The position numbers and the translations under genes are program-made. From assembly GCA_913020155.1 (NCBI GenBank), contig CAJWBA010000010.1, forward strand, positions 1 through 52,919: a DNA stretch of 52,919 nucleotides, written 5' to 3'. The notes under the pieces were generated by a model. The model was not told where the DNA came from and ran no database searches. It worked only from the letters and a program-made list of their open reading frames with translations. The stretch comes from an uncultured Flavobacteriales bacterium (GTDB lineage: Bacteria > Bacteroidota > Bacteroidia > Flavobacteriales > Flavobacteriaceae). The first letter of the stretch is position 1. Each line of letters begins with the position of its first letter. Below are positions 37,138 through 44,257 of the stretch, in pieces.

Positions 37138-37899
37138 CTACCTAATCTCCGCAACAAAGTCGTGAATTTGATCGACTCCTTTTTCTTTTAAAAATTTAAT
37201 GAATGCAGAACCGATTATTGCGCCTTTGGAGTGGGTAGTGACGGCGGTGTAGGTCTCAGCATTACTGATTCCAAAACCAACAACTGTTGGGGTGTTGAGG
37301 TTCATGTTGGCAATACGTTCAAAATATGAGGTTTGTGAAGCTCCAAAGGTACTTTGGGCACCTGTAACTGCTGCGCTCGAAACCATGTAAATGAAACCAT
37401 TCGATACCCGATCGATGAAGCGGATTCGTTCCTTGGGGGTTTGGGGGGTTATCAAAAACATATTGTAGAGTCCGTGTTGGTCGAACAGGTTTTTGTATTG
37501 CTCGTGATACACATCTACGGGCAAATCGGGAATGATGAGACCATCGATTCCGATGGCTTCACAGCGTTGGCAAAACTTTTCAATTCCGTATTGCATCATG
37601 GGATTGAAATACCCCATAAGTACTAGGGGAATATCGATGTGTTCCCGAATCCCTTCCAATTGATTAAAGAGTTTTTCTGTGGTCATTCCGTTGCGTAAAG
37701 CCTGAGTAGAGCTTTCTTGTATTGTAGGTCCATCTGCAAGGGGATCCGAAAAAGGGAGCCCTATTTCCACCATATCAACCCCAGCAGCTTGAAGGTTTTT
37801 GAGAATGGGAACGGTATCTTCCAGATTTGGATATCCTGCTGAAAAATAAAGGGATAATAGTTTTTTGTCTTCTTGGAATTTTTGGTCAATTCTATTCAT
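37138..37899 (-). CDS. trpA: Tryptophan synthase alpha chain
   Basis: A 253-residue TIM barrel that cleaves indole-3-glycerol phosphate to indole, which is channelled to TrpB. The catalytic residues are E46 and D56 in VEIGLPFSDPLADGPTIQ, with GFIYMVSSAAVTG and VVGFGISNA as phosphate-loop markers. It is the last gene of trpEGDCFBA; its start adjoins the trpB stop with a shared base. The end is 48 bases from the decayed glycosylase gene that faces it. Confidence 0.96.
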   Translation of the reverse strand: MNRIDQKFQEDKKLLSLYFSAGYPNLEDTVPILKNLQAAGVDMVEIGLPFSDPLADGPTIQESSTQALRNGMTTEKLFNQLEGIREHIDIPLVLMGYFNPMMQYGIEKFCQRCEAIGIDGLIIPDLPVDVYHEQYKNLFDQHGLYNMFLITPQTPKERIRFIDRVSNGFIYMVSSAAVTGAQSTFGASQTSYFERIANMNLNTPTVVGFGISNAETYTAVTTHSKGAIIGSAFIKFLKEKGVDQIHDFVAEIR

Positions 37900-39080
37900 T
37901 ACAACTTAAAATAATCTATGTAGGTTTCTAAATCTTTATCTCCACGTCCAGAGCAATTAAAAACAACAACTTCGTCTGTTTTGAATTTTCGAACATCAAG
38001 AACTGCAAAAGCATGGGCTGTTTCTATGGCGGGAATAATACCTTCCATCTGGGAGAGTTTAAGTCCCCAGTCCATTGCTTCTTGGTCGGGAACAGAGATA
38101 AATTCAGCGCGTTTGGTTCTAAACAAATGTGCATGCATGGGTCCAACACCAGGGTAGTCGAGCCCAGCAGAAATGGAATAAGGTTCTGAAATTTGTCCAT
38201 CATCTGTTTGCATCAACAGGGTTTTACTTCCATGAATGATGCCCTCTTTTCCCAAAACAGATGTAGCGGCACTTTCTCCAGTATCAATTCCTTTTCCGGC
38301 AGCTTCAACAGCAATGATATTGACACGTTTGTCATTCAAGTAGTGGTAATACAAACCTGCAGCATTACTACCGCCACCAACACAAGCAATCACGTGATCG
38401 GGATAATCCCTCCCTTCTGTTTCTAGCAATTGATTTTTGACTTCTTCACTTATGACGGACTGAAAACGAGCTACCATATCCGGGTAGGGGTGTGGCCCTA
38501 CAACCGATCCAATGATGTAGTGCGTATCAATAGGGTTGTTTATCCAGTCTCGGATCGCCTCGTTGGTTGCGTCTTTTAGGGTTTTACTTCCCGATAAGGC
38601 TGGACGGACATTTGCCCCTAATATTTTCATTCTAGCTACATTGGGGGCTTGACGCTTGATGTCCAGCTCACCCATGTAAATAACACACTCAATTCCCATC
38701 AAAGCACAAACTGTTGCAGTTGCAACTCCGTGTTGACCTGCTCCAGTTTCAGCAATTATTCTATTTTTACCCAAGCGTTTAGCCAATAGGATTTGACCGA
38801 TGGTGTTGTTTACTTTGTGGGCACCCGTATGACACAAATCTTCTCGTTTGAGATAAATTTTAGTATTGTATTTTCCGGACAATCGTTTTGCAAAATAAAG
38901 GGGAGTTGGGCGACCTACATAATCTTTCAGCAAGTTGTTGAACTCCTCCTTAAATTTAGGTTCTGATGAAATCTTCAAATAATTCTCTCGCAGTTCTGCT
39001 ACATTAGGGTAAAGCATTTCGGGAATGAATGCACCCCCAAAATCACCGTAATATCCTTTTTCATTTACATTAAAATTCAT
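37899..39080 (-). CDS. trpB: Tryptophan synthase beta chain
   Basis: A 393-residue PLP enzyme that joins indole and serine. The Schiff-base lysine is K89 in [19 protein letters not shown] and the phosphate-binding [10 protein letters not shown] follow, and the C-terminal CSGRGDKD is normal. It is the standard TrpB1 type, paired with TrpA. It overlaps the end of trpF by 11 bases, so translation is likely coupled. Confidence 0.97.
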
Positions 39081-39687
39081 TCAACTCGCTTTTAAATTGC
39101 TTTAATTCGTTAACTTTTTTTATGCCCGGAGCACTTTCAAATTTACTGTTTACATCAATTGCATAAAGGGGTAAATTTGTTTTTAATAATTTTTTAAGAT
39201 CTTCAACGTTTTCGATCCCAATTCCTCCACTAAGGAAAAAAGGTTTTTTTGAGGGATAGGTTTTTAGTATGGACCAATCAAAGCAGTATCCATTTCCACC
39301 CGGGAGTTCTCCTTTGGTATCAAAAAGGAAAAAGTCACAACAGTTTTCATAAGCCTCCAATTCAGAAAAGTCAAAATCATCTTGAATACTGAATGCTTTG
39401 ATTACTTCAACTTCCAAAGACTGAATATGTTTGCAGTACGCAGAAGTTTCATTTCCGTGTAATTGAACAGCGTGGAGTTGATGTTCTTTGATGATTGTTT
39501 CGATGTAGTCAAGTGTTGCATCAACAAATACCCCCGTTTTTTTAATTTCTTCAGCCAATGAAGGGGTACTCTGTTTTACGTAACGAGAAGAAGATACCCA
39601 AAAAATAAATCCCAGATAATCGGGAGCTAAAGCAGCTATGGCCTCAATATTTTTGGGTTCACGCATGCCGCAAATTTTAAGCTTCAT
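39070..39687 (-). CDS. trpF: Phosphoribosylanthranilate isomerase
   Basis: A 205-residue TIM barrel that isomerises phosphoribosylanthranilate. [10 protein letters not shown] with the catalytic cysteine, [27 protein letters not shown] with the catalytic aspartate and FLSGGIG are present. ATG 39687 gives MKLKICGM; the frame also has a TTG two codons earlier. It is separate from trpC, unlike the E. coli fusion, and overlaps trpC by 11 bases and trpB by 11 bases. Confidence 0.95.
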
Positions 39688-40468
39688 AATCAATGGTTTT
39701 TATGAATTCAACTGCACTCTTACCGGGATCATCCGTTTTCATAAAGTTTTCGCCAATCAAAAATCCTTGGTAACCGTAATTTTTAAGATCCTTTATGGAT
39801 TCTGTTGTACTGATTCCACTCTCAGAAACTTTTACAAAGTCTGAGGGAATCATCTCGGCTAATTTTCTACTGGTATTCAGATCTACTTCAAAGGTTTTTA
39901 GGTTTCTATTGTTCACACCCAACAAATCTAAAGAGGGCATTATTGACTTTTCGATTTCTTCTAAACTATGAACTTCCAACAAAACTTCTAACCCAAGAGA
40001 CTGTGCAAAAGCAGAAAGCATTTCAATTTCTTTTCTAGAAAGCACTGCGGCAATGAGTAAAATTAAATCAGCTCCGTGTGCCTTAGCTTCTAGAAGTTGA
40101 TATTCGTCTATAATAAATTCTTTCCTCAACAAAGGCAGCTTGGTTGTTGCTCGAGCCAAGGTCAGATCTTCGAGAGATCCTCCAAAATACTTTCCATCGG
40201 TCAATACAGACATTCCAGAAACTCCGGCGGCTTCATATCCTTTTGCAACATCAATTAACGATAAAGAGCTGTTAATGTTTTGTTTAGATGGGGAACGTCT
40301 TTTGTGTTCGGCAATAATTCCTGAGGTACTGGATTGTAAAGAAGAAGTAATGGAATAGGTATCGCTTTCGAAAAGGGGTGATTTTTCCCAGTAATGGACG
40401 GGGAAAAGTTTTTTTCTCAGATCAACTTCAACTTTCTTGTCTGCTATGATTTTATCTAAGATAGTCAT
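39677..40468 (-). CDS. trpC: Indole-3-glycerol phosphate synthase
   Basis: A 263-residue TIM barrel that closes the indole ring. IIAEHKRRSPSKQNIN, SVLTDGKYFGG, PLLRKEFIIDEYQL, LLEVHSLEE, LGVNNRNLKTFEVD and VSESGIST form the active site. It shares one base with the trpD stop and overlaps trpF, so the operon is read without gaps here. Confidence 0.96.
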   Translation of the reverse strand: MTILDKIIADKKVEVDLRKKLFPVHYWEKSPLFESDTYSITSSLQSSTSGIIAEHKRRSPSKQNINSSLSLIDVAKGYEAAGVSGMSVLTDGKYFGGSLEDLTLARATTKLPLLRKEFIIDEYQLLEAKAHGADLILLIAAVLSRKEIEMLSAFAQSLGLEVLLEVHSLEEIEKSIMPSLDLLGVNNRNLKTFEVDLNTSRKLAEMIPSDFVKVSESGISTTESIKDLKNYGYQGFLIGENFMKTDDPGKSAVEFIKTIDYEA

Positions 40469-41460
40469 TATTTACTTAGTTTTTGAAGGTTCTTTAATGC
40501 TTCAAATGCTTTGCCAGAAAGAAGCGATTCTTTCGCTTTTTCAAAACCGTCTTTTGGAGTTGATTGTAACGCTGTGGCAATAGCCATCCCTGCATTGGCA
40601 CAAATTACATTGGTTTGGGCTTTTGTTCCTTTGTTTTGAATTACATTCATAAAAATCTCAGCAGAAGATACCACGTTTTCCCCTCCACTGATTTCATCAG
40701 GACGAACTGGTTTTACTCCAAAATCAGCAGGAGTTAATATTTGTTCACGATGATTACTGAATGCTTTTGTTGGCCCCGTCAGTGATATTTCATCATATCC
40801 TTCTAAGGCATACAATACGGTAAAATTTTGATCTGTTTTTTGAAACAGGTAATGGTAAAGTCGAGCTAATTCTAAATTGAAAACACCCGTCAATTGATTT
40901 TTCGGGAAGGAGGGATTTACCAGAGGCCCCAGCATATTAAAAAAAGTTTTTATTTCTAAATCTTTTCGAACAGGAGCAACTTTTTTCATTGCTGGATGAA
41001 AAAGTGGAGCATGTAAAACACAAATTCCTGCCAGATCAACACAGCGTTTCAAAAAATCTTCTTCATTTGAAAAACGGATTCCCAAAAACTCCAAAACATT
41101 GCTCGACCCACAACCAGAAGAGACCCCGTAATTTCCGTGTTTAGCTACTTTTATGCCAGCGCCCGCAGTAACAAAAGAAGAGAGCGTTGAAATGTTAAAC
41201 GTATCTTTTCCATCTCCTCCAGTACCACACAAGTCAACGGTTTCAAATTCACTCAAATCAATAGCAATGCACAGTTCTAACAATGCAGATCTAAAACCTT
41301 CAAGTTCCTCCAAACCAATGCTCCGCATCATGAACACTGTCAGGAAAGAAGCGATTTGACTGCTATTGTATTTTCCGTCCGCAATGTTGATGATCATCTG
41401 TCGTGCCTCTTCTTTTGAAAGTTGCTCGTGTTTGATTAATCTATTCAATACTGATTTCAT
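40468..41460 (-). CDS. trpD: Anthranilate phosphoribosyltransferase
   Basis: A 330-residue enzyme that adds phosphoribose from PRPP to anthranilate. The glycine-rich PRPP loop is VDLCGTGGDGKDTFNIST, with KHGNYGVSSGCGSSNVLE and RKDLEIKTFFNMLGPLVNP; in the last, the usual arginine of the R-T-[IL]-F-N segment is replaced by K-T-F-F-N. It lies 4 bases after trpG. Not fused to the glutamine amidotransferase. Confidence 0.96.
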   Translation of the reverse strand: MKSVLNRLIKHEQLSKEEARQMIINIADGKYNSSQIASFLTVFMMRSIGLEELEGFRSALLELCIAIDLSEFETVDLCGTGGDGKDTFNISTLSSFVTAGAGIKVAKHGNYGVSSGCGSSNVLEFLGIRFSNEEDFLKRCVDLAGICVLHAPLFHPAMKKVAPVRKDLEIKTFFNMLGPLVNPSFPKNQLTGVFNLELARLYHYLFQKTDQNFTVLYALEGYDEISLTGPTKAFSNHREQILTPADFGVKPVRPDEISGGENVVSSAEIFMNVIQNKGTKAQTNVICANAGMAIATALQSTPKDGFEKAKESLLSGKAFEALKNLQKLSK

Positions 41461-41464
41461 AAGA

Positions 41465-42028
41465 TTATGAATTTATCCAGTTTTCAATTATTTTTTTTCC
41501 GTGTGGGGTTAGTACAGATTCAGGGTGATATTGAACAGCACTTACGTTGTAGGTTTTATGGCGTAAAGACATTAACTGTCCTTCCGAATCAAAAGATGTT
41601 GGGATCAATACTTCGGGCAAAGGTAGGTCCACAACCCATGAGTGATAACGACCTACTTCAAAACTCTCCGGAATTCCTTCGAAAAGTGGATCTTCTTTTG
41701 AAACACTAACTGGGGTTGCAATACCGTGATAAACTTTATCTAGATTTTTTAATTTCGCTCCAAAAACTTCTCCTATGGCTTGTTGTCCCAAGCAGACTCC
41801 AAGGATGTTTTTGGAAGGTGCATAGCGTTCTATTGCCGCTTTTAGCAAACCAGATTCTTCTGGAATTCCTGGACCTGGTGAAAGAAGGATGTATTCAAAA
41901 CTTTCTAGTTGATCTAGATCAAATTGATCATTGCGTTTGACGGTTACTTCACATTCTAGTTCTTCTAGGTAATGAACCAAATTGTATGTAAACGAGTCGT
42001 AATTGTCGATGACGAATATTTTTCTCAT
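41465..42028 (-). CDS. trpG: Anthranilate synthase component II (glutamine amidotransferase)
   Basis: A 187-residue class I glutaminase that feeds ammonia to TrpE. DNYDSFTYNLVHYL, LSPGPGIPEESG, the nucleophile C79 in GVCLGQQAIGE, and VQYHPESVLTPHG with the catalytic His and Glu are intact. It follows trpE by 1 base. It could also serve PabB, but no pabB is in the window. Confidence 0.95.
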   Translation of the reverse strand: MRKIFVIDNYDSFTYNLVHYLEELECEVTVKRNDQFDLDQLESFEYILLSPGPGIPEESGLLKAAIERYAPSKNILGVCLGQQAIGEVFGAKLKNLDKVYHGIATPVSVSKEDPLFEGIPESFEVGRYHSWVVDLPLPEVLIPTSFDSEGQLMSLRHKTYNVSAVQYHPESVLTPHGKKIIENWINS

Positions 42029-42029
42029 A

Positions 42030-43430
42030 TTAAATTTTTTCGGCTAAGGATAGTGCTTTATCCAAAGCACCTAATTTATTGTAAACTTCTTGAAGTTCTT
42101 TTTCGGGTACAGAATCGGCAACAATTCCTGCCCCTGCTTGGTAATGTAACTCTCGATTTTTTGATAAGAAAGAGCGAATAATTATTGCATGATTAAAATT
42201 CCCATTGAAATCCATGTAACCAATAGCACCTCCGTAAAAATTTCTTTTTGTTTTTTCATAGCGATCAATCAGTTTTAGGGCACTGTGCTTGGGAGCTCCG
42301 CTCAAAGTTCCTGCTGGAAAAGTATCAGCAACCACCTGAAAGGTTTTGGCGTTTTTTTTCATGGTACAAGTAACTTTGGAAACCAAGTGAATTACATGAG
42401 AGAAAAATTGAATTTCTCTGTTTCTTTCTACCACTACATTGGATCCGTTTCGACTTAAATCATTTCGAGCTAGATCAACAAGCATTACGTGTTCGCTGTT
42501 TTCTTTTGGGTCTTTTGCAAGCTCTAGAGCAGCTAGCTTGTCTTGTTCATCATTTCCTGTGCGTCTAAAAGTCCCGGCAATAGGGTGAATTTCTGCCTTC
42601 CCTTGATCTATGATAATTTGAGCTTCGGGAGAACTCCCAAAAATTTTAAAATCTCCGTAGTCAAAAAAGAAAAGATAAGGAGAAGGATTGATGGATCGTA
42701 AGGTTCGATAAACATTGAACTCATCTCCTTTGAATTTTTGTGAAAAACGTCGCGAGAGAACCAATTGAAAAACATCACCACGAAAACAATGTTGTTTTCC
42801 TTTATCCACAAAATCAAGAAATTCTTCGTCCGTTAAATTCGATGTCTTAGAGCCTCTTTTTTCAAAAGAAAAACGAGTGCTGTTTTTTGCTTGAACAAGT
42901 TGTTCAATTTCTTTTAGATTGTGATCTCCTTTGTAAAGATGAGAAAACAAATGTGCCTCATGGTTGAACAAGCTTATTGCAATTATGTTTTGATACACGG
43001 CATAAAATATTTCGGGTATGTCGAGCCCTTCTTTTTTTGGATTGAGTGCCAGATTTTCAAAGTGTTCAACAGCATCGTGGGCGATGTATCCAAAAATTCC
43101 GTTGCTGATAAACTTAAAAGGAAAGTCTTCACTTCTGAACTGCTGCGAAAATTGATCTAAGCGTTCCGGGATGTTTGTGTTTTCATCCAAGCTTTCAACC
43201 AAAACCTTCCCATCGGGATAATGAATGGTGAGTTGTTTATTTTTTAGTGCTATAGAAGCGATGGGATTACAGCAGATGTATGAATAGTTTTTGTTGTTTG
43301 CATCATATTCACTACTCTCCAGGAGTAAACTGTGTGGAAAAACATCCCTAATTTTTAGGTATGCACTAACTGGAGTAAGGGTATCTGCTAAAATTTTTTT
43401 ATGTTGGGAATGCAATTTAAATGTTTCCAT
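42030..43430 (-). CDS. trpE: Anthranilate synthase component I
   Basis: A 466-residue chorismate-utilising enzyme, first in the operon. The N-terminal SLLLESSEY contains the LLES motif that binds feedback tryptophan, and the catalytic part shows GDVFQLVLSRRF, GSSPEAQIII, HPIAGTFRRTG, LVDLARNDLSRNG, FPAGTLSGAPKHSALKLID and YQAGAGIVADSVPE. The ATG is 12 bases beyond a strong terminator stem, so the gene lies under transcription attenuation as well as likely feedback inhibition. Confidence 0.96.
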   Translation of the reverse strand: METFKLHSQHKKILADTLTPVSAYLKIRDVFPHSLLLESSEYDANNKNYSYICCNPIASIALKNKQLTIHYPDGKVLVESLDENTNIPERLDQFSQQFRSEDFPFKFISNGIFGYIAHDAVEHFENLALNPKKEGLDIPEIFYAVYQNIIAISLFNHEAHLFSHLYKGDHNLKEIEQLVQAKNSTRFSFEKRGSKTSNLTDEEFLDFVDKGKQHCFRGDVFQLVLSRRFSQKFKGDEFNVYRTLRSINPSPYLFFFDYGDFKIFGSSPEAQIIIDQGKAEIHPIAGTFRRTGNDEQDKLAALELAKDPKENSEHVMLVDLARNDLSRNGSNVVVERNREIQFFSHVIHLVSKVTCTMKKNAKTFQVVADTFPAGTLSGAPKHSALKLIDRYEKTKRNFYGGAIGYMDFNGNFNHAIIIRSFLSKNRELHYQAGAGIVADSVPEKELQEVYNKLGALDKALSLAEKI

Positions 43431-43442
43431 AGTTCTAAAATT

Positions 43443-43475
43443 AAAAAAGGCTTGTCGTCATGACAAGCCTTTTTT
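43443..43475 (-). terminator. trp attenuator terminator hairpin
   Basis: In the minus-strand transcript AAAAAAGGCTTGTC (43475-43462), loop ATGAC and GACAAGCCTTTTTT (43456-43443) form a perfect 14-bp stem ending in a U tract. It lies between the trp promoter and trpE, 12 bases before the trpE start. Upstream (43522-43489) a second hairpin forms: GGTG/CACC outer pairs and the perfect CGAATAA/TTATTCG inner stem. Its 5' arm holds the tandem Trp codons of the leader ORF. A candidate antiterminator pairing (43497-43488 with 43470-43457) has about eight pairs with gaps and is weak. The stem is symmetric, but no plus-strand gene ends here. Confidence 0.8.
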
Positions 43476-43508
43476 ATGTTGAAATAGAGGTGATCACGAA
43501 TAATTGAT

Positions 43509-43550
43509 TTATTCGTTCCACCATACTTTTATATTTGTAAGAAATTTCAT
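43509..43550 (-). CDS. trpL: trp operon leader peptide (13 residues, tandem Trp)
   Basis: The ORF reads MKFLTNIKVWWNE followed by TAA. Two adjacent TGG codons (43523-43518) lie four codons before the stop. It sits between an exact-consensus promoter and a terminator hairpin just before trpE. This is the expected layout for ribosome-mediated attenuation: when charged tRNA-Trp is scarce, the ribosome stalls on the Trp codons and disturbs the first hairpin. The ATG is only 5 bases after the -7 box, so the transcript probably starts at or next to the A of the ATG and the peptide would be made from a leaderless mRNA. Too short for standard gene callers; support is positional and by codon content. 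Confidence 0.72.
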   Translation of the reverse strand: MKFLTNIKVWWNE

Positions 43551-43555
43551 TTATT

Positions 43556-43588
43556 CAAAGATAGATGAAAATAAATTTTTATTACAAA
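43556..43588 (-). promoter_or_regulatory. trp operon promoter (TTTG-N21-TATCTTTG)
   Basis: On the minus strand TTTG (43588-43585) and TATCTTTG (43563-43556) match both Bacteroidota boxes exactly with a 21-base spacer. It lies 11 bases after the stop of the CDGSH mini-gene. Transcription should start near 43551-43548. Confidence 0.65.
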
Positions 43589-43599
43589 ATAATTTGAAA

Positions 43600-43683
43600 T
43601 TATTTGTTGACGTGAGACCCATCACAATATCCGTCAGGATTTTGAGTATTTCCACATCCACATTTTGGTCTGTTGATTCGCAT
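43600..43683 (-). CDS. Minimal CDGSH-type iron-sulfur protein (27 residues)
   Basis: A 27-codon ORF that starts 4 bases after the yceI stop codon. Its core reads CGCGNTQNPDGYCDGSH, that is C-x-C-x(9)-C-D-G-S-H, the 2Fe-2S ligand set (three Cys, one His) of CDGSH/mitoNEET proteins, with one residue more than usual between the second and third cysteines. The rest is a short basic N-terminus and VNK at the end. The classic fold has about 40 residues and dimerises; a 27-residue form would hold little beyond the cluster-binding loop. The perfect motif, the start codon and its position after yceI make chance unlikely. The function is unknown, perhaps redox sensing or electron transfer. Confidence 0.7.
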   Translation of the reverse strand: MRINRPKCGCGNTQNPDGYCDGSHVNK

Positions 43684-43687
43684 AAGA

Positions 43688-44257
43688 TTATAGTTTTAAG
43701 GTTACATCTAATTCAAAATCATCATAAATCATTTTATTACCTAAATTGTCAAAAAATGATTTGGAACCGTAACGAATGTCATAAAGGGAACGATTGATAA
43801 TCACTTTGGCAGTTGCCGTTTGATCATTTATTTGAAAATCAAAGGTTGCTGGATTCGTTTTTCCTTTGATTGTAAAATCTCCAGTTACGGTGTAAAGTCC
43901 ATTTCCTTTCGTTTTTATGTCTGTAAAAGTCAATGAAGCTTGAGGATGCTCGGCAACACCAAAGAAATCGTCAGACTTTAAGTGTCCTTCTAGTTTTCCT
44001 TTGTATTCCCCTTCAAGGTCAGCACAGTTGATAGAATTCATGTCAACAACAAAAGAACCTCCAGTTAAAACTCTATTATCCATAGTTAAATAACCAGAAG
44101 AAATATTAATATTTCCATCATGCTGTCCCGTTACTTTTTTGCCTAACCAATGGATTGAACTTTCAGTTAAATTGATTACTTTTTTTTGTGCTTCTGCATT
44201 CTGAAAATTAAAAAGGATCGCAGTTAATAAAAATAAGAATGTAATTGTTTTTTTCAT
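43688..44257 (-). CDS. YceI family periplasmic protein
   Basis: A 189-residue protein with a signal peptide (MKKTITFLFLLTAILFNFQNAEA) and a YceI lipocalin-like domain: SSIHWLGKKVTGQHDGNI, SGGSF-like LTGGSFVVDMNSI, HLKSDDFFGVAEHPQASLTF and GDFTIKGKTNPATFDF. Homologues bind polyisoprenoid lipids and are often induced by stress. It lies 38 bases downstream of marR on the same strand and just upstream of the CDGSH mini-gene, so the three are probably one transcript repressed by MarR. Confidence 0.9.
   Translation of the reverse strand: MKKTITFLFLLTAILFNFQNAEAQKKVINLTESSIHWLGKKVTGQHDGNINISSGYLTMDNRVLTGGSFVVDMNSINCADLEGEYKGKLEGHLKSDDFFGVAEHPQASLTFTDIKTKGNGLYTVTGDFTIKGKTNPATFDFQINDQTATAKVIINRSLYDIRYGSKSFFDNLGNKMIYDDFELDVTLKL

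Follow-up and report, generated by a model that had tools for sequence, protein, structure and literature searches.

A predicted four-segment transcription attenuator ahead of the trp operon in a member of the Flavobacteriaceae

The trpL attenuator of Escherichia coli consists of a short open reading frame (ORF) with tandem Trp codons, four RNA segments (1-4) and a terminator ahead of trpE. The window analysed here, a stretch of 52,919 nucleotides from an uncultured member of the Flavobacteriaceae, shares with trpL the short tandem-Trp ORF, a predicted set of segments 1-4 and the terminator before trpE, in a phylum that, according to passages of one study, is without Shine-Dalgarno sequences, unlike E. 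coli (PMC6847099). The locus raises the question of whether its leader operates as a ribosome-mediated attenuator and, if so, which part of the RNA serves as the antiterminator. The observation behind the original prediction is confirmed, and the sequence comparisons support its attenuator interpretation as largely right: the leader very probably attenuates transcription of the trp operon by means of the ribosome and four RNA segments.

Operon, leader peptide and promoter

Read on the minus strand, the order of elements is TTTG, TATCTTTG, the ORF MKFLTNIKVWWNE, hairpin 1, the terminator and trpE. The operon that follows on the same strand is a complete trpEGDCFBA, five genes of which pass the curated NCBIfam cut-off: trpG (41465..42028; TIGR00566), trpD (40468..41460; TIGR01245), trpC (39677..40468; NF001377), trpB (37899..39080; TIGR00263) and trpA (37138..37899; TIGR00262). 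The remaining two are best matched by the expected families yet fall below the cut-offs, namely trpE (42030..43430; TIGR00564, 421 bits against 517.7) and trpF (39070..39693; NF002295, 157 bits against 216). The nearest named TrpE, at 95% identity, is that of Candidatus Arcticimaribacter sp. SAT226, which marks the source as a marine flavobacterium.

The leader ORF (43509..43550, minus strand), defined from the sequence and a genus alignment, runs from ATG to TAA with its tandem TGG TGG at 43523-43518. The 13-codon tandem-Trp leader that had been claimed is thus present as MKFLTNIKVWWNE ahead of the complete operon. A short translated ORF with tandem Trp codons ahead of the operon is characteristic of trpL-type leaders; the ORF here, which is predicted to be translated, has this form and is conserved. 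All 14 aligned genus members have a 13-codon ORF that ends in WW plus two residues, each with two Trp in its 13 codons. When the 200 bases upstream of the window's trpE were shuffled with dinucleotides kept, a WW ORF arose in only 7 of 2000 cases.

Wider sampling drew on two sets of trpE upstream regions. The first began as 107 loci and was reduced to 97 distinct regions (96 besides the window) after two contig-end cuts and eight duplicates were dropped; the second held 88 regions, made up of 28 loci and 60 stretches picked for spread among the matches listed. One region is present in both sets (L043 and L108), and no TrpE match was found in 36 of the 247 genomes of the phylum search. A WW ORF lies within 200 nt upstream of trpE in 149 of the 185 sampled regions, as compared with a shuffle mean of 0.8, and the reverse strand of the same 185 regions holds none within that distance. 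By script, 156 regions have both a WW ORF and a terminator, five have the ORF without a terminator and 24 are without a WW ORF. Among the 142 rows beyond the aligned genus, the number of adjacent Trp residues is three in 123, two in 18 and four in one. The original prediction had proposed that trpE upstream regions of relatives be searched for a short ORF with Trp codons; WW is kept in 14/14 genus members and, within 300 nt of trpE, in 87/97 distinct same-order regions. Nine of the ten remaining same-order regions have a WWW leader that starts 316-640 nt upstream (L044, L045, L053, L056, L058, L074, L085, L088 and L096), and the last, L020, is one of two pieces in which a split trpE was matched; the leader lies with the other piece, L027.

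Several of these loci have features of their own. A 94-aa ORF, which we take to be GIY-YIG-like, lies between attenuator and trpE in L074 (1174-1458), and ORF ends similar to it occur in L044, L045, L085, L088 and L096. The split trpE belongs to genome G014, where it was matched in two pieces (L020 and L027), one with two in-frame TGA codons; the gene is either broken or misassembled, and the leader of L027 looks intact. Spaced Trp codons (W-A-W-F-W-F) were seen by eye in L168, which the WW rule misses.

The promoter claimed for the leader is borne out as one of the Bacteroidota type. The -7 box TATCTTTG (43556..43563, minus strand) fits the Bacteroidota sigma-A consensus TAnnTTTG, and a possible -33 element, TTTG (43585..43588, minus strand), is located 21 nt farther upstream. 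A generic sigma-70 scan did not report the promoter of the trp leader, which is of the Bacteroidota type. Passages on mapped starts in Flavobacterium psychrophilum place the TAnnTTTG box at -12 to -5 (PMC9723704), and passages on Flavobacterium johnsoniae give 4-5 nt between box and transcript start and describe the -33 element as weak (PMC6847099). Judged from such promoter spacing, the window's transcript is predicted to begin 0-2 nt ahead of the leader AUG; the two rules together put it at 0-1 nt, and the F. psychrophilum rule by itself gives position 43551, 1 nt upstream of the AUG.

By the same rule, the predicted start falls 0-2 nt before the AUG in 21/21 near relatives, the window included. 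The 81 other rows labelled Flavobacteriaceae divide into 43 at 0-2 nt, six at 3-5 nt, 31 at 12-17 nt and one with an impossible value, a tally in which the same-family loci L024 and L025 are counted as "other". TAnnTTTG was found in 27 of the 54 remaining rows, ten at 0-2 nt and the others scattered from 3 to 36. These values take the last TAnnTTTG before the last in-frame leader ATG, and some matches may be due to chance. Leaderless mRNAs are rare in F. psychrophilum, at 5.5% of mapped mRNAs in the passages concerned (PMC9723704), and 5'UTRs shorter than 10 nt amount to ~3.7% in Bacteroides thetaiotaomicron. Just upstream of the promoter, a 27-codon ORF containing CGCGNTQNPDGYCDGSH is found at 43600-43683 (minus strand); it presumably resembles CDGSH iron-sulfur proteins, and an NCBIfam search with its 26 post-start residues returned no match.

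Alternative structures of the leader RNA

Folding of the 121-nt leader gives an energy of -34.9 kcal/mol (z -7.6), and 0/200 shuffles came as low. Its first element is the predicted protector hairpin 1, composed of segments 1:2 (43489..43522, minus strand). The 5' arm includes the stop codon and most of the tandem Trp codons, taking in the whole of the second TGG but just two bases of the one before it. The hairpin core CGAATA:TATTCG is paired in 14/14 genus members, save one pair in L005.

The predicted intrinsic terminator, segments 3:4 with a U tract (43442..43476, minus strand), has the loop AUGAC, and 11 bases separate its stem from the trpE ATG. It had been described as a 14-bp stem; the fold gives 15 pairs. 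Sequence and fold thus place a predicted intrinsic terminator between leader and trpE, as in trpL-type attenuators, and a generic terminator scan did not report one at 43476-43442. Of 19 genus genomes, 14 contain the terminator core pattern GGCTTGTCATSACGACARGCC, each a single time, and it is therefore not a general terminator. Within the loop, the column of position 43459 is conserved in 13/14 genus members, though loops as such need no conservation.

An explanation for this conservation may lie in the antiterminator. In the family, a segment that directly follows the Trp codons, UCGUGA, pairs with the loop and arm of the terminator (UCACGA). The corresponding strands in the window are segment 2 (UCGUGAU plus CC; 43489..43499, minus strand), delimited by duplex, folds and alignment, and segment 3, the terminator 5' arm and loop (43458..43469, minus strand), from duplex and masked fold. 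Both CGTGA after the Trp codons and TCACGA in the terminator are present in 92/106 family rows, with family assumed for named records and otherwise taken from genome searches. The antiterminator strand often overlaps the leader's own stop codon in Flavobacteriaceae: the TGA of CGTGA is that stop in 70/106 family rows, whereas in the window's genus the stop codon comes before segment 2. In L018, a double change replaces T-A by C-G in the CGTGA:TCACGA pairing.

The 2:3 pairing also emerges from tests on 53 Bacteroidota leaders, chosen out of the 156 rows by a script that required dissimilar sequences and distinct terminators. The 45-nt stretch that follows the Trp codons was paired with terminators; with its own terminator the best duplex averaged -16.3 kcal/mol, with swapped ones -11.7 kcal/mol, and 0/20,000 permutations reached the own-pair mean. 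The own duplex is better than the row and column means in 45/53 leaders, and the own terminator ranks first of 53 in only eight. Composition could favour own pairs, and the leaders were therefore also shuffled with dinucleotides kept, whereupon 0/300 shuffle sets reached the own mean. Singly, 26/53 leaders have a 2:3 pairing at p <= 0.05 and 27/53 do not; clear examples pair over 13 bases (L181, L166) or 10 (L165). The protector 1:2 could be treated in the same way for 50 of these leaders, three being dropped for upstream strands that are too short. Again 0/300 shuffle sets reached the own mean, with 11/50 at p <= 0.05 singly and 39/50 not significant alone. The 2:3 and 1:2 pairings, proposed to be mutually exclusive, are significant as sets (53 and 50 leaders); the window's own 2:3 is weak. 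In L005, one pair of both is broken.

The original prediction had found no strong antiterminator, which stands for the window and fails for most of its genus relatives. Its suggestion that a stalled ribosome might act on the first hairpin only is a guess that is not needed, because the relatives have a conserved, covarying antiterminator. Free, unmasked transcripts of L002 and L003 that end in the terminator loop fold as the antiterminator, and the protector is therefore not favoured at that length. In full-length folds of six leaders the terminator is always more stable than the antiterminator; antitermination must therefore be kinetic. The terminator-antiterminator decision of the textbook attenuation model is likewise kinetic.

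From parts read directly in the sequence, and conserved among relatives, we infer the start site, ribosome stalling, termination and dependence on Trp in the following cycle. Transcription would begin roughly one base upstream of the leader AUG. As long as charged tRNA-Trp is ample, the ribosome would pass WW and terminate at the UAA, leaving the protector 1:2 to hold segment 2; the terminator 3:4 would then form, and transcription would stop ahead of trpE. With Trp-tRNA short, the ribosome would stall on WW and, by covering the 5' arm of hairpin 1, free segment 2. The latter would pair with segment 3, in the 5' arm and loop of the terminator, so that polymerase would read on into trpEGDCFBA.

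The window's variant and rival explanations

It is because of base 43459 (minus strand) that the window is without a strong antiterminator, unlike most of its genus relatives. The window has G in place of C at this position, where both the 13/13 other aligned genus genomes and the 13/13 others matched by GGCTTGTCATSACGACARGCC have C, and the G breaks the usual UCGUGA:UCACGA pairing. Simple loss of the antiterminator from the window, considered at first, was rejected because duplex folding revealed a shifted pairing, of UCGUGAU with GUCAUGA and of CC with GG. The resulting 2:3 duplex has -8.4 kcal/mol, weaker than those of L002, L003, L006, L008, L011 and L027 (-11.5 to -13.1 kcal/mol) and stronger than that of L005 (-7.1 kcal/mol); alone, it is not significant against dinucleotide-keeping shuffles (p 0.18). 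A stalled ribosome was mimicked by masking the 5' part of a transcript that ended in the terminator loop. Under these conditions the window forms the antiterminator at -6.5 kcal/mol, and its relatives at -8.3 (L002), -9.3 (L003), -10.0 (L008), -10.4 (L083) and -5.0 (L005). Without the mask, at equal length, the window's RNA instead adopts hairpin 1, at -13.5 kcal/mol. Because its 2:3 pairing is weakened and shifted, read-through in the window may be lower than in most relatives.

These values invite the harsher reading that the window's copy is a weakened, nearly locked-off attenuator that terminates mostly at any level of Trp, which we regard as possible yet rather unlikely. The G at 43459 and a CACC that lengthens hairpin 1 would both favour termination, the window is the sole departure at that position among 14 aligned and 14 pattern-matched genus genomes, its masked fold is the weaker one beside L002, L003 and L008, and its free transcript folds as hairpin 1 where those of L002 and L003 fold as the antiterminator. 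Set against this, the shifted pairing UCGUGAU:GUCAUGA with CC:GG survives, and L005, with a masked fold even weaker than the window's, looks intact in other respects. An assembly error could also account for the base itself, in a genome that is 80% complete and in 45 contigs.

That the leader is instead an ordinary intrinsic terminator accompanied by a chance ORF, with regulation by the promoter only, would suit a terminator directly before trpE; it is very improbable given that WW ORFs precede trpE in the sampled regions far beyond their chance frequency and that the 2:3 and 1:2 pairings exceed the swapped or shuffled controls. Sensing of Trp by some other leader device, such as a T-box, a Trp riboswitch or a TRAP-like protein, appears even less probable: nothing was found in its favour, an Rfam search of 42800-44200 that admitted E values up to 1 yielded no T-box or Trp riboswitch, and the conserved element is the WW ORF. 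A ribosome-mediated attenuator remains the preferred reading.

Relation to known leaders and reach across Bacteroidota

As a class, such a leader has been described before (RF01692; PMC2864571, PMC6414381). A table of the 2010 paper lists the Bacteroid-trp motif for Bacteroidetes (Weinberg 2010, PMC2864571), and in 2019 the motif was noted upstream of trp in F. psychrophilum (PMC6414381). For the latter organism, passages of a further paper, on structured 5' regions of amino acid operons, report strong clues that leader peptides attenuate these operons; the words trp and tryptophan are absent from its main text, and the passages give no structure (PMC9723704). RF01692 and the window share the phylum, the place before trp genes, UGGUGG and AAAAAAGGCUUGUC, and the site has the location expected of RF01692, directly ahead of genes for tryptophan biosynthesis in a member of the Bacteroidota. 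Compared with RF01692, the window's genus has two Trp in 13 codons, and the RF01692 consensus structure, which stops within the terminator, shows no antiterminator, whereas the relatives studied here have one. Unlike E. coli trpL, the window has a Bacteroidota-type promoter box and a predicted 5'UTR of ~1 nt, and the Flavobacteriaceae antiterminator uses the terminator loop and the start of the 3' arm besides the 5' arm.

The best Rfam match of the site is RF01692 (43462-43570), at 41.8 bits against a cut-off of 49; the site is therefore the nearest relative of RF01692, and not a member by Rfam's rule. The model passes its cut-off in 0/19 genus genomes (16/19 match at E <= 0.5), and in the window's own genome nothing reached E <= 0.001, the site having E 0.00112. 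Across the phylum, it passes in 24/247 genomes and reaches E <= 0.001 in 26, all in the window's family except one (G275), in a search whose stricter filters lose weak matches. Among 14 control genomes the cut-off is passed in one, Bacteroides ihuae, and Lactococcus lactis gave a weak match at E <= 0.5. Rfam matches to STnc370, Atu_C9 and others were below their cut-offs, mostly overlapped the symmetric terminator and were taken as chance. The G275 locus (L157) is without a leader directly before trpE; another gene is probably first in its trp operon, because the RF01692 match lies ~1.25 kb farther upstream.

Of 63 genomes outside the family, sampled among the matches listed, 49 have a leader ORF with WW ahead of trpE, and 45 of those 49 leaders have a script-found terminator. 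Judged from these sequences, the attenuator architecture is phylum-wide as far as sampled and the RF01692 model is narrow. Whether a single phylum-wide class of trp attenuator exists, with an antiterminator strand past the Trp codons and, in many lineages, a leader mRNA that starts at the AUG, is a proposition with roughly even prospects. Members of such a class outside the window's family would mostly escape the present Rfam model. If the proposition is true, ribosomes would load on the emerging 5' end and so couple translation to transcription without Shine-Dalgarno sequences.

The kind of device is known; in the present case its antiterminator is seen more clearly, its mRNA may start without a leader of its own, and the window has a one-base variant. 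An explicit antiterminator with comparative support is now given for a Bacteroidota trp leader, and the switch is indicated well beyond the range in which RF01692 detects it. Should the leaderless start be real, the leader would provide a compact natural test of ribosome-polymerase coupling in Bacteroidota, for which the single-base change of the window would be a ready natural variant.
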